Origin: an uncultured Brachyspira sp.
GTDB lineage: Bacteria; Spirochaetota; Brachyspiria; Brachyspirales; Brachyspiraceae
NCBI RefSeq assembly: GCF_944388875.1
Contig: NZ_CALXKQ010000014.1
Coordinates: 1-64,000 of the forward strand
DNA: 64,000 bases
Direction of reading: 5' to 3'
Shown here: positions 7,503 through 22,792 of the stretch, piece after piece
How positions within the stretch are numbered: position 1 is the first letter of the stretch
How the letters are laid out: each line of letters begins with the position of its first letter
Notes under the pieces: generated by a model
The model's database searches: none
Told to the model about the DNA's origin: nothing
Seen by the model: the letters and a program-made list of their open reading frames with translations, nothing else
Made by a program: the position numbers and the translations under genes

Positions 7503-7700
7503 ATGAATATTAATTACATATATGATACTTTGGGCTTAATCTTTACAAGCCAAGCCAAGCCAAGCCAAGCCAAGCCAAGCCAAGCCAAGCCAAGCCAAGC
7601 CAAGCCAAGCCAAGCCAAGCCAACTAATATAATAATCTTTATTTTAAAAAATTACATAAACCTAACAATCAGTGTTAGATATTTTTGTTTGAAAAAATAG
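7503..7700 (+). CDS. Phase-variable leader peptide (CAAGC repeat), putative
   Basis: This is a 65-codon ORF whose ATG lies about 6 bases after a -10 box and has no Shine-Dalgarno. The repeat is read as SQAKP pentapeptides. Past the tract this frame stays open for 78 bases and ends in TAG (7698-7700), which is itself part of the Shine-Dalgarno (TAGGAG) of the methyltransferase gene. The other two frames stop at once (TAA 7625-7627 and 7630-7632). The arrangement suggests that a leader in phase couples translation to the next gene. It could be a chance ORF, but the same layout recurs at 17724. Confidence 0.4.
   Translation: MNINYIYDTLGLIFTSQAKPSQAKPSQAKPSQAKPSQAKPTNIIIFILKNYINLTISVRYFCLKK
7546..7620 (+). 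repeat. Pentanucleotide tract (CAAGC)x15
   Basis: There are 15 perfect CAAGC units followed by a partial CAAC. The unit length is not a multiple of 3, so slippage by one unit changes the reading frame. It lies inside the 7503-7700 leader ORF, about 90 bases before the methyltransferase start. Confidence 0.98.
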
Positions 7701-7708
7701 GAGCAATA

Positions 7709-8467
7709 ATGGATATAAAAACTATCAATAATTTTTTATGGTGGGTACCATTTAAAGAAATAAGAAATTATCTAAAAAATGCTGTCAATGAAAATATTTA
7801 TTTAAATAATAAATATTCATTTTTAAAAAATATTATAGAAATAAATAATGATATAAAATTTAAAAGCCAATATGATCAAGATTTTTTGGTATATGAGTAT
7901 TTTAATGGTAAAAAAAATGGATTTTTTATAGATATAGGAGCTCATAATGGTGAATGGATTAATAATACTTATATATTTGAAAAATTAGGGTGGAATGGTA
8001 TTTGTATAGAAGCAGATCCTGATAATTTTGAACTTTTAAAAAAGAATAGAAAATGTTATACATATAATTTTGCTATTAATAGTGAAAATTCAGATAGTAT
8101 TAAATTTATTAAATCTAAAGTAGATGCTTTAAATGTTTTAGAAAAACATTGCTCTGATGAGCATGCCAAAAGAATAAAATCTGAAGCAAAAATAGATAAT
8201 TTAGAATATATAAATATTAAATCTATTACTTTTAATGATTTAATGAAGAATTATCATAGTGAAATAAAATATATAGATTTTTTATCTCTTGATATTGAAG
8301 GAGGAGAGTTAGATATATTGAAGACTATAGATTTTAATACTTATAGCTTTGGGCTTTTAACAATTGAAAATAATGAAAAAGAAAATACACTAATTGACTT
8401 TATGAAAACTAAAGGATATAAAGTTTTAATTGATATAGGCTGTGATATTTTATTTGTAAAAGAATAA
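7709..8467 (+). CDS. FkbM-family methyltransferase
   Basis: This is a SAM-dependent O-methyltransferase of the FkbM type, a family that commonly methylates surface sugars. FIDIGAHNGEW (73-83) is the SAM-binding motif I, EADPDN (101-106) the acidic motif II, and LDIEGGELDIL the FkbM hallmark. The start is the ATG with AGGAG 5 bases upstream; a TTG at 7685 is less likely. The 252 residues begin with FLWWVPFKEIRN (9-20), a tag also seen in the glycosyltransferase at 17905. The upstream pentamer leader suggests phase-variable expression. It is monocistronic with its own terminator. Confidence 0.85.
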   Translation: MDIKTINNFLWWVPFKEIRNYLKNAVNENIYLNNKYSFLKNIIEINNDIKFKSQYDQDFLVYEYFNGKKNGFFIDIGAHNGEWINNTYIFEKLGWNGICIEADPDNFELLKKNRKCYTYNFAINSENSDSIKFIKSKVDALNVLEKHCSDEHAKRIKSEAKIDNLEYINIKSITFNDLMKNYHSEIKYIDFLSLDIEGGELDILKTIDFNTYSFGLLTIENNEKENTLIDFMKTKGYKVLIDIGCDILFVKE

Positions 8468-16740: not shown

Positions 16741-17583
16741 ATGAAAGTAGGTGTAATTGGTGCTGGTGCTATGGGTTCTGGTATAGCACAGGCTTTTGCT
16801 CAAACAGAAGGATATGAAGTTTGCTTATGCGATATAAAAGAAGAGTTTGCTGCTGGCGGTAAAGAAAGAATTGCTAAAAGTTTTGCTGGAAGAGTTGCTA
16901 AAGGTAAAATGGAACAAGCTCAGGCTGATAAAATTTTAGCTAAAATCACTACTGGTCTTAAAGATATATGTAAAGACTGCGATTTAATAGTAGAAGCTGC
17001 TTTTGAAAATTTAGAAGTTAAGAAAACAACTTTCAAAGAACTTCATGCTATATGCAAACCAGATTGTGTATTCTCTTCTAACACTTCTTCTCTTTCTATT
17101 ACAGAAATAGGTGCAGGAGTAGGAAGACCTGTTATTGGTATGCACTTCTTTAACCCAGCTCCTGTTATGAAATTGGTAGAAGTTATTTCAGGACTTAATA
17201 CTCCTAGAGAAGTTGCTGAAAAGATCATTAAAATATCTCAGGAAATAGGAAAAACTCCTGTAGAAGTTAATGAAACTGCTGGTTTCGTTGTTAACCGTAT
17301 ACTTGTACCGATGATTAATGAAGCTATAGATTTATATTCTATGGGAGTAGCTTCAGTTGAAGGTATTGACAATGCTATGAAATTAGGTGCTAATCATCCA
17401 ATGGGACCTCTTGCTTTAGGTGATTTAATAGGACTTGATATAGTTCTTGCTATTATGGAAGTCTTACAAAAAGAAACTGGAGATCCTAAATACAGACCTA
17501 GTGCTTTGCTTAGAAAAATGGTTCGCGGCGGAATGCTTGGACAAAAAACTGGCAAAGGTTTCTACGATTATTCTAAAAAATAA
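16741..17583 (+). CDS. hbd: 3-hydroxybutyryl-CoA dehydrogenase
   Basis: Reduces acetoacetyl-CoA to (S)-3-hydroxybutyryl-CoA with NAD(P)H. The 280 residues include the Rossmann motif [13 protein letters not shown] at the N-terminus, SNTSSLSI, the catalytic His in [16 protein letters not shown], and [11 protein letters not shown] before the C-terminal helical domain. A Shine-Dalgarno AAGGAG is 7 bases before ATG. It is the last gene of the cluster. The next enzymes to butyryl-CoA (bcd, etfBA) are not in this window. Confidence 0.97.
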
Positions 17584-17605: not shown

Positions 17606-17641
17606 AAATACGGGGAGGGTAAAATCTCCCCATATTTTTTA
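17606..17641 (+). terminator. Terminator after hbd
   Basis: Stem GGGGAG/CTCCCC (17612-17617 and 17626-17631), extended by ATA/TAT, followed by a run of T residues. Confidence 0.85.
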
Positions 17642-17686: not shown

Positions 17687-17714
17687 TTGACAAAAAAATT
17701 ATATATAATATAAT
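17687..17714 (+). promoter_or_regulatory. Strong promoter abutting the second pentamer leader ORF
   Basis: Perfect TTGACA (17687-17692), a 16-base spacer and perfect TATAAT (17709-17714). Transcription should start near 17721, three bases before the ATG at 17724, giving a nearly leaderless transcript. Confidence 0.75.
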
Positions 17715-17723
17715 TATTTTTAA

Positions 17724-17912
17724 ATGATTATTAGTCTATTAAGATATATTAGCTTGAAGTCAAGTCAAGTCAAGTCAAGTCAAGTCAAGTCAAGTCAAGT
17801 CAAGTCAAGTCAAGTCAAGTCAAGTCAAGTTTTTATTTTAATTAAAATTAATTTAATTTATATCTATATTATTTTTATAAGTTTTATTTTTAGGAGCTTT
17901 TTTTATGGATAA
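17724..17912 (+). CDS. Phase-variable leader peptide (CAAGT repeat), putative
   Basis: A 62-codon ORF whose ATG lies 9 bases after a consensus -10 box, without a Shine-Dalgarno. The repeat reads as SQVKS units. After the tract this frame runs on for about 80 bases and stops at TAA 17910-17912, overlapping the start of the glycosyltransferase gene (ATGGATAA, 17905-17912). The other two exit frames stop at TAA 17839-17841 and 17843-17845. Layout and phase match the leader at 7503. Stop-start overlap is typical of translational coupling. Expression of the peptide itself is unproven. Confidence 0.45.
   Translation: MIISLLRYISLKSSQVKSSQVKSSQVKSSQVKSSQVFILIKINLIYIYIIFISFIFRSFFYG
17761..17830 (+). 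repeat. Pentanucleotide tract (CAAGT)x14
   Basis: There are 14 perfect CAAGT units preceded by a degenerate GAAGT. The unit differs by one base from the CAAGC tract at 7546. It lies inside the 17724-17912 leader ORF. Confidence 0.98.
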
Positions 17913-19002
17913 AATTATAAAAAAAGCTATAAATGATTTAGTTTGGTTTATTCCATTTAAAAGATTTAGAAATAGTATTAGGGTATTACTGCATTATTTT
18001 TTTAACAAATTGGATAAATTAGATAAGTTAGATAAATTAGGAATTTTAGATAAGATAGATTATATTATAGCTGAATATGATAATAGTGGATTTGATGATT
18101 GTGTAATAATCCAATGTGATGGGGGCTTTGCAGATCAAATTAATACATTTATTACTGGGAAATATATAGAATTGAATTATAATAAGAAAGTTAAATATGA
18201 TTTGGAATGGTATGACTATAACGGTCTTGATTGGAATAAGAAATTCAGAAGGAATTTTGAATTATTAAATATTTTTCCTGATATAGATTTTAATCTTGCT
18301 TCTAAAGAAGAAATTTATAGATACAAGTCTTTATATCATATGGATAACATAGAAATAGATTATAAAAGTCTTTACATTATTTCTAATTTAAAAAAGCTTC
18401 ATTTGTTTTCTAGATATAAAGAAATATATTTTTATAATTCATATAAAGATTTATTTGATGAAATTCTTGACTTTGATAAATATTTATATCCAAAATTAGA
18501 CAATAATAATTTGGAAGTTTATAATAATATAAAATCATCTGATTGCCCTATTGCTATTCACATACGTCTTGGCGATTTAGAAGATTGGGGAAAAGAAATT
18601 CTAAGTACTGATTATTTAAAAAAATCTGTAAAATTTATTACTGAAAAGATAAAGCCTTCTACCCCTAAATTTTTTATTTTTTCTAATGATATAAACTATG
18701 TAAAAGAAATGATCTGGAAAGATGAACTTTGTAAATATCAATATGAATTTGTAGTTAATAATGATAATGATAAAGGCTATATAGATTTTTATCTTATTAG
18801 TAAATGTAAGCATGTTATAGGTTCTGTTGGTAGGTTTGCTCTTACTTCTTATAATTTTATAAAATATGATCATAAGACTTTATTATTACCTAATAATATT
18901 AACAAAGATATTATAGAAGATTTTAGAAATACTAATTTTTACGATATCGAAGAAAATGAAAATTTATTTATTATAAGTTATAACAAAAATATTAAAAATT
19001 AA
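17905..19002 (+). CDS. Glycosyltransferase, GT11 (alpha-1,2-fucosyltransferase-like)
   Basis: The HIRLGD motif (219-224) is the HxRxGD donor-binding signature of GT11 and related fucosyltransferases, and QCDGGFADQIN (70-80) resembles the family's N-terminal GGLGNQ region. The C-terminus DFYLISKCKHVIGSVGRFALTSY fits as well. The 365-residue length is somewhat longer than usual. The N-terminus begins with DLVWFIPFKRFRN (11-23), shared in kind with the FkbM protein at 7709, then LDK triplets from 9-bp DNA repeats. AGGAG lies 8 bases before ATG. It probably modifies a surface glycan and is predicted to be phase-variable. Confidence 0.75.
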   Translation: MDKIIKKAINDLVWFIPFKRFRNSIRVLLHYFFNKLDKLDKLDKLGILDKIDYIIAEYDNSGFDDCVIIQCDGGFADQINTFITGKYIELNYNKKVKYDLEWYDYNGLDWNKKFRRNFELLNIFPDIDFNLASKEEIYRYKSLYHMDNIEIDYKSLYIISNLKKLHLFSRYKEIYFYNSYKDLFDEILDFDKYLYPKLDNNNLEVYNNIKSSDCPIAIHIRLGDLEDWGKEILSTDYLKKSVKFITEKIKPSTPKFFIFSNDINYVKEMIWKDELCKYQYEFVVNNDNDKGYIDFYLISKCKHVIGSVGRFALTSYNFIKYDHKTLLLPNNINKDIIEDFRNTNFYDIEENENLFIISYNKNIKN

Positions 19003-21814: not shown

Positions 21815-22792
21815 ATGAAAGAGATTAACAGACTTAATGATTTATTTATGCGGTATCTAATCGGTAAAGAAGGCGACGAGGATATATTAGAAAATATTGT
21901 TAATGCTGTTTTAAATAATGCTGGTTTTGAATCAGTAAGCAACCTTGAAATTATTAATCCATATAATCTGCCTGAAAATGAAAATTTAAAAGAATCAATT
22001 CTTGACGTTAAAGCAAAAACAAAAGATGGAAAGAAAATAATTATTGAAATACAGCTTGTAGGAAATAATAATTTTGTAAAAAGAATTTTATATTATATAG
22101 CAAAGAATATAGTTTTAGATTTAAAAGAAAATGAAGATTATATTAATGTAAGCCAAATGATAAGCATTAGTTTCATAAATTTTAATTTAAATATTGGAAG
22201 CGAAACTGATATAAAGCGAGAACATAAATGTTTTACTCCGACTGATATTAATAATCATAATCTTAGATTGGATGTATTTCAAATGCATTTTATAGAGATA
22301 AAAAGGTTTATAGATATATTAAAAAACATTAGTATAGATGAATATAATAAAAATAAACTTTTATCTTGGATAGATTTTTTAACGACAAAAGATTTAGAAA
22401 AAGATATTGATAAGTTAATAGGAGGTAATGAAATTATGAGTAAAGTAATAGATAAATATAAAAGATTTGTAGCAGATGAAAAAGAGATGGAAGCATATAA
22501 CGAGAGAGATACTTTTCTTTACGGACAGGCTGTAATGCTTCAGTATGAAAGAGAGGAAGGAAAAAAAGAGGGAATAGAAATAGGTTTTCAGCATGGTATA
22601 GAAAAAGGTATAGAAAAAGGTATAGAAAAAGGTATAGAAAAAGGTATAGAAAAAGGCAGACAGGAAGGTATAGAACAAGGTAAAAAATATGAGCAAATTG
22701 CTATAGCTAAGGGAATGAAAAACAAAAATATGGATTTAAACCTAATAAGTGAATTAACAGGCTTGAGTATAGAAGAAATAGAAAAGATTTAA
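21815..22792 (+). CDS. Rpn/PD-(D/E)XK nuclease-family protein
   Basis: This belongs to the Rpn/PDDEXK_2 group, often labelled recombination-promoting nuclease or putative transposase. The opening KEINRLNDLFMRYLIG is typical; the nuclease core has Asp64 in SILDVKAKT and Glu78-x-Gln80 in IIIEIQ. A Lys/Glu-rich C-terminal region contains five perfect GIEK units encoded by a 12-bp DNA repeat, then a short helical end. The frame is also open 24 bases upstream, but the promoter fixes the ATG at 21815 (325 residues). Rpn-like proteins promote recA-independent recombination in E. coli; phage defence has been proposed for some. Its role here is open. Confidence 0.8.
   Translation: MKEINRLNDLFMRYLIGKEGDEDILENIVNAVLNNAGFESVSNLEIINPYNLPENENLKESILDVKAKTKDGKKIIIEIQLVGNNNFVKRILYYIAKNIVLDLKENEDYINVSQMISISFINFNLNIGSETDIKREHKCFTPTDINNHNLRLDVFQMHFIEIKRFIDILKNISIDEYNKNKLLSWIDFLTTKDLEKDIDKLIGGNEIMSKVIDKYKRFVADEKEMEAYNERDTFLYGQAVMLQYEREEGKKEGIEIGFQHGIEKGIEKGIEKGIEKGIEKGRQEGIEQGKKYEQIAIAKGMKNKNMDLNLISELTGLSIEEIEKI
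22595..22654 (+). repeat. In-frame 12-bp repeat (GGTATAGAAAAA)x5
   Basis: Five identical 12-bp units encode GIEK in the Rpn-like protein. Because 12 is a multiple of 3, copy-number change alters protein length, not frame. Confidence 0.97.

Follow-up and report, generated by a model that had tools for sequence, protein, structure and literature searches.

A probable phase-variable leader reading frame upstream of a GT11-family glycosyltransferase gene in Brachyspira, and related tandem-repeat leaders across the genus

The leader locus and its downstream gene

The window analysed here is a stretch of 64,000 nucleotides (G+C content 28%) from contig 14 (65,589 bases) of the 3.11-Mb genome of an uncultured Brachyspira sp. 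All features described at this locus lie on the forward strand. A 3-hydroxyacyl-CoA dehydrogenase gene (16741-17583, identified by Pfam) is followed by an intrinsic terminator at 17612-17631 (GGGGAGGGTAAAATCTCCCC with ATATTTTTTA), which separates it from the unit downstream. This unit begins with a sigma-70-type promoter at 17687-17714, made up of TTGACA (17687-17692), a spacer of 16 nt and TATAAT (17709-17714). Its 12/12 match is the only one within the 10.8 kb scanned, and the promoter is conserved in two orthologous leaders, L238 and L239. The ATG at 17724-17726, 9 nt past the -10 box and without a Shine-Dalgarno (SD) sequence, opens a leader ORF (17724-17912) that encodes 62 amino acids at the present repeat number (MIISLLRYISLKSSQV...RSFFYG*).

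The leader ORF contains a pentanucleotide tract at 17757-17830, which can be read as 14.8 units of AAGTC and includes 14 perfect CAAGT units (17761-17830). The tract is located neither between nor directly upstream of the promoter boxes; its start is 43 nt past the -10 box. A tandem unit whose length is not a multiple of three is thus found inside a leader ORF behind a promoter. The three frames in which the tract can be left stop 11, 15 and 82 nt from its end. Two of them are closed just past the tract (17839-17845) by stop codons at 17839-17841 and 17843-17845. The third ends at the TAA at 17910-17912, which overlaps the glycosyltransferase ATG at 17905 (ATGGATAA), so that, depending on the frame, the leader ends either short of the control point or within or past it. 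The preliminary description of this locus had listed the promoter, the ATG at 9 nt, the 14 repeat units, the overlapping TAA and the two early stops, and all of them are present in the sequence. Note that the copy number of this tract is known from a single assembly, in which contigs are interrupted at tracts of this kind. In this assembly (G000), contig C8 ends inside a tract and contigs C42, C37 and C14 start inside one. Tracts are therefore probably under-counted, and repeat numbers are uncertain.

The gene at 17905-19002 encodes a GT11-family glycosyltransferase (PF01531, Glyco_transf_11; E = 3.6e-8, 33.5 bits against a gathering cut-off of 23.9). GT11 is the family of alpha-1,2-fucosyltransferases. 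The N terminus of the protein carries the motif VWFIPFKRFR, which is matched by the motif HMM described below with E = 1.8e-12. The gene has its own SD sequence, AGGAG, at 17892-17896. Minimum free energy (MFE) folding predicts a 13-bp stem at 17895-17928, in which 17895-17907 pairs with 17916-17928, enclosing part of the SD sequence and the entire start codon. The 60-nt region has an MFE of -13.0 kcal/mol (z = -3.2) and ranks second in stability among the start regions of the 42 window genes compared. A ribosome translating the long leader ORF would open this predicted stem. The stem is significant here but is not conserved in the orthologue L238 (-5.0, z = -0.8), and it is therefore taken as a supporting detail only. 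No intrinsic terminator was found between the tract and the gene, where the best hairpin reaches -1.4 kcal/mol. A search against Rfam, covering the window stretch and five further loci, gave no match to any known RNA family.

L238 is the nearest tract-bearing orthologue. Its glycosyltransferase is 49% identical and has the same chromosomal neighbour. The promoter, an ATG (6 nt past TATAAT), a frame open into the tract and the ORF design are all retained, and the leader stop lies in the same ATGGATAA context. Most of the other leader bases differ between the two loci. The L238 tract has 17 units, three more than the 14 found here, and L238 is therefore in the same frame state. No terminator-like hairpin was found in its leader. 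In L239, which precedes a second orthologue of the glycosyltransferase, the promoter is kept and the tract and the leader ATG are both missing; this is possibly a locked-on form. The loss of the ATG from homologous leaders had been named as evidence against a functional leader ORF. The ATG is kept in L238, and the leader from which it is missing has no tract either.

Taken alone, this locus proves little. Shuffling of the spacer gives an open exit frame by chance with p of about 0.25, and an ATG located 6-10 nt past the -10 box with a frame open to the tract has a chance of about 0.07. The weight of the evidence is therefore carried by the genus-wide set of leaders.

Other repeats in the window

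A sister leader is found at 7503-7700 on the forward strand, upstream of an FkbM methyltransferase gene (7709-8467). It starts with an ATG at 7503, 6 nt past a TATAAT, and contains the tract (CAAGC)15.6 at 7546-7623, followed by a weak hairpin (CTAACA-ATCAG-TGTTAG, 7662-7678) with a T-rich tail. The preliminary description had attributed the same promoter spacing and the same link to the downstream start to both leaders, and neither similarity holds. The sister leader has a good -10 box but no good -35 box at standard spacing, and its ORF ends 8 nt before the methyltransferase gene.

A third tract, (AGAGTTT)11, occupies positions 1-77. On the minus strand, which reads off the contig start, it is preceded by TTGACA and a TATTAT-like -10 box, like other leaders. 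The controlled gene would lie past the contig end, and no leader ATG can be assigned. A 12-nt repeat (GGTATAGAAAAA) at 22595-22656 is located inside an ORF. Unlike the units of the leader tracts, its unit is a multiple of three, and it encodes in-frame protein repeats.

Tandem-repeat tracts and motif genes in the genus

CAAGN tracts are found in 21 of 26 Brachyspira genomes. In the genome that includes the window they occur at nine places, and for eight of these the gene is on the same contig. The eight genes encode GT11 glycosyltransferases, FkbM and other methyltransferases, and polysaccharide pyruvyl transferase, consistent with the earlier suggestion that the switch serves several glycan genes. 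The products of all eight carry a short common motif, VWWIPFRKLRDxxR, at one terminus, either N or C. The corresponding HMM identifies 22 places in the same genome and has matches in 25 of the 26 genomes.

In its 25-amino-acid form, INxIVWWIPFRKLRDxxR, the motif is located at the N or C terminus of glycan enzymes that are otherwise unrelated (GT11, FkbM and pyruvyl transferase). It is encoded at 7709-7792 and 17905-17991 in the window. Within the class, it was found only in the Brachyspira family and not in the two other genomes of the order. It is perhaps a shared targeting or membrane-contact element.

Tracts were located by pattern and motif searches, which gave 127 stretches around tract or motif places, to which loci returned by the searches were added. 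The loci fetched contain 139 tracts, and in 137 of them the unit is 4, 5 or 7 nt long. After removal of redundancy by flanking sequence, 54 tracts with a motif gene downstream were retained, all with units of 4, 5 or 7 nt. The counts given below are to be read with the composition of this set in mind: its leaders share ancestry, its tracts were found partly via the motif and the CAAGN pattern, the thresholds for -10 boxes, hairpins and ribosome reach are the analyst's choice, and the repeat numbers are taken from assemblies that often break at tracts. When genome contigs were scanned with the glycosyltransferase as the query, no named relative was found, and the leader pattern matched once, by chance, within coding sequence of an Elusimicrobiota MAG. 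A plasmid search with a methyltransferase as the query returned only a distant Streptomyces match.

Exit frames, terminators and leader starts

The arrangement of stop codons downstream of the tracts is not random. In 52 of the 54 leaders the first stop follows the tract by no more than 12 nt, and the last frame stays open for at least 40 nt in 50 of them. Both features occur together in 48/54, compared with 25 on average and at most 34 in shuffled sequences. In 29/54 leaders, a hairpin with a T-run at -8 kcal/mol or lower is located between the tract and the gene; at the same threshold such hairpins appear in 4 of 162 shuffles and in 6 of 150 similar regions located upstream of other genes.

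Among the 31 hairpin leaders, every one has one or two frames that lead into the hairpin, and none (0/31) has zero or three. From shuffles, 8.3 leaders with zero such frames and 2.8 with three would be expected. The probability is 6e-8 if all leaders are independent but only 0.015 on 12 clusters, where one leader is kept per cluster of related spacers. In the leaders without a strong hairpin, one or two frames reach, without a stop, a point 20 nt or less from the gene start in 18 of 20, while 10.5 of 20 would be expected to have no such frame. Random exit frames at other tracts had been proposed as evidence against the switch, and this is not what is found. The question of whether the open exit frame exceeds chance, raised in the preliminary description, thus has two answers: it is weak evidence at the single locus and non-random in the genus-wide set. 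The frame of the gene itself is not open from the tract to the start in any leader (0/54). Because shuffles also give few such cases (mean 3.8), the value of this count lies in exclusion, not in significance.

Leader starts were compared in the 44 short leaders, which are those members of the 54 without a long ORF entering the tract. An ATG open into the tract is found 6-10 nt past a -10 hexamer in 22 of these 44, the commonest distance being 6 nt. The same arrangement is found on the antisense strand in 4/44 (9%) and in 400 shuffles with a mean of 3.8 and a maximum of 10. No SD sequence precedes the leader ATG in these 22 leaders (0/22), and one precedes the downstream gene in 46/54. Transcription begins about 7 nt after a -10 box. 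An ATG 6-10 nt past this box therefore implies that the leader ATGs are probably leaderless starts, as far as their spacing indicates. At the glycosyltransferase locus, the distance of 9 nt would give a leader of 2-3 nt, not zero. Exit frames and leader starts across the genus thus support the repeat switch with a leader ORF that had been suggested from sequence features. The terminators of sister leaders, the leaderless-looking starts and the published precedent discussed below go beyond that suggestion.

Tracts in operons and on plasmids

In another arrangement, the tract follows the C-terminal motif of a preceding complete gene and a terminator and then the next gene come after it (e.g., L193, L150, L217, L221, L157 and L156). 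In such operons, each glycan gene may gate transcription into the next. In L157 (6334-6621), and also in L081, (CAGAC)10 after the end of the motif gene is followed by a new promoter and by (GACAA)16 before the next gene.

In plasmids of B. hyodysenteriae (L259-L266), the tract forms the end of an annotated alpha-1,2-fucosyltransferase gene. It has 10 units in four records and 9 in another, and is shorter or interrupted in others. As the number of units differs between strains, the length of the annotated protein differs too. No strong terminator is visible in the plasmid tract stretch. Over the 801 bases compared, a contig of another genome of the genus (G007) is 100% identical to pBhyoB78, a plasmid from Brachyspira hyodysenteriae ATCC 27164.

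Proposed switch and alternative explanations

The locus is probably a phase-variable leader-ORF switch for the GT11 glycosyltransferase, one of many in Brachyspira. The anatomy, the exit frames, the recurrence across the genus and the copy-number difference among B. hyodysenteriae plasmids are read directly from the sequences; the steps of the switch are proposed from them. Transcription would start about 7 nt past the -10 box, at or just before the ATG at 17724, and the leader ORF would probably be translated as a leaderless message. When slipped-strand events add or remove 5-nt units, the exit frame would shift. In two of the three frames the ribosome would halt 11-15 nt past the tract. The remaining frame is that of the present assembly; here the ribosome would cross the AU-rich spacer, the SD sequence of the gene and the start-codon stem, and end 5 nt past the start, where glycosyltransferase initiation would be raised by translational coupling. 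In about half of the sister leaders, the same choice of frame would act on an intrinsic terminator, as in pil1 of S. gallolyticus.

Since the leader has no terminator and its ORF runs through the start-codon stem, translational coupling appears to be the likeliest link to the gene. With moderate confidence, the locus can be assigned to a form of the switch that works by translational coupling; the chief alternative is attenuation. The good SD sequence of the glycosyltransferase gene may mean that coupling adds little. Under attenuation, untranslated leader RNA would be terminated early, by Rho or at a weak AU hairpin, a ribosome in the long frame would prevent this, and the output would be the level of mRNA. 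About half of the sister leaders carry intrinsic terminators, and pil1 works in this way, but the best terminator-like hairpin here has only the -1.4 kcal/mol given above and L238 has none. The spacer is AU-rich and C-poor, and such RNA is a poor target for Rho. Attenuation is thus rather unlikely at this locus, although it ranks above the other alternatives.

Some repeats in 5'-UTRs and promoters are known to act through their length, and the tract could likewise alter promoter strength or the folding or stability of the mRNA, the leader ORF being incidental. No result of the analysis favours this, and it is improbable, because the tract is downstream of a complete promoter and because length alone does not predict the non-triplet units, the non-random exit frames or the non-random position of the start ATG. 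That the ORF runs over a neutral repeat by chance is compatible with the single-locus value for the open exit frame, but it is contradicted by all genus-wide tests and by the design kept in L238; it is very improbable at this locus and effectively excluded for the genus-wide set. In-frame phase variation, in which the tract lies within the 5' portion of the coding sequence and the frame decides whether the glycosyltransferase is made, is the most frequent role known for tetra- and pentanucleotide tracts, and glycosyltransferases are its usual targets. It was rejected, and its probability here is close to nil: the gene has its own SD sequence and start, and its frame is closed between the tract and the start here and throughout the 54 leaders.

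A wider and more tentative reading, which takes in this locus, has somewhat less than an even chance of being correct. Brachyspira may possess genome-wide, frame-selecting tandem-repeat modules outside the controlled coding sequences in three forms: a leaderless ORF with a terminator, a coupled leader ORF as at this locus, and a 3'-end tract gating the next gene. Operons would then be chains of independent on/off switches.

Significance and comparison with known systems

If the interpretation is correct, the presence of many such switches in a spirochaete genus would point to a general device that evolved independently. It would also offer a possible origin for surface variability among intestinal spirochaetes, the targets being genes of surface-glycan type. 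The leaders would further provide a natural set for the study of leaderless translation and of transcription-translation coupling, because each locus carries its own three-frame control. In the open literature searched, no such switch is reported for Brachyspira, and the Brachyspira genome papers checked mention neither phase variation nor tandem repeats. The only cases of repeat-in-leader attenuation described there are two pilus operons in a single Streptococcus species.

In the lic genes of Haemophilus and the lgt genes of Neisseria, glycan genes undergo phase variation by in-frame simple sequence repeats. The Brachyspira loci also combine short tandem repeats with glycan genes, but their tracts lie outside the gene frame in 54/54. 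In attenuation of the E. coli pyrBI type, a leader ORF crosses the attenuator, and ribosomes close to RNA polymerase block formation of the terminator. Leader ORFs crossing an attenuator are found in Brachyspira as well; the input, however, would be the repeat number, not the level of UTP. The overlap of leader stop and gene start (ATGGATAA) and the stem over the start codon resemble translational coupling in general. Unlike in ordinary coupling, the repeat tract would make it heritable and reversible.

The closest parallel is pil1 of S. gallolyticus, in which the number of GCAGA repeats determines how long a leader peptide is, and transcription increases when the leader is translated into a terminator hairpin (Danne et al. 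2014, PMC3894217). The mechanism was proven by mutation: deletion of the terminator and loss of the start codon behaved as predicted (PMC3894217). Like pil1 and pil3, the Brachyspira leaders have pentanucleotide repeats in a short ORF behind a promoter, with the repeat number setting the ORF stop, surface genes downstream, and an intrinsic terminator in about half of the cases (29/54). Unlike them, they have starts that look leaderless and no RBS, occur at many loci with several unit lengths, would control glycan-modifying genes and, in operons, include tracts located where the preceding gene ends. The leader of the GT11 gene differs further in having no terminator and in ending over the start of the gene. 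It lacks two of the features that define pil1, the terminator and the RBS of the leader, and is therefore a variant rather than a member of that type, while the terminator-bearing leaders of Brachyspira, judged by their anatomy, would work like pil1.
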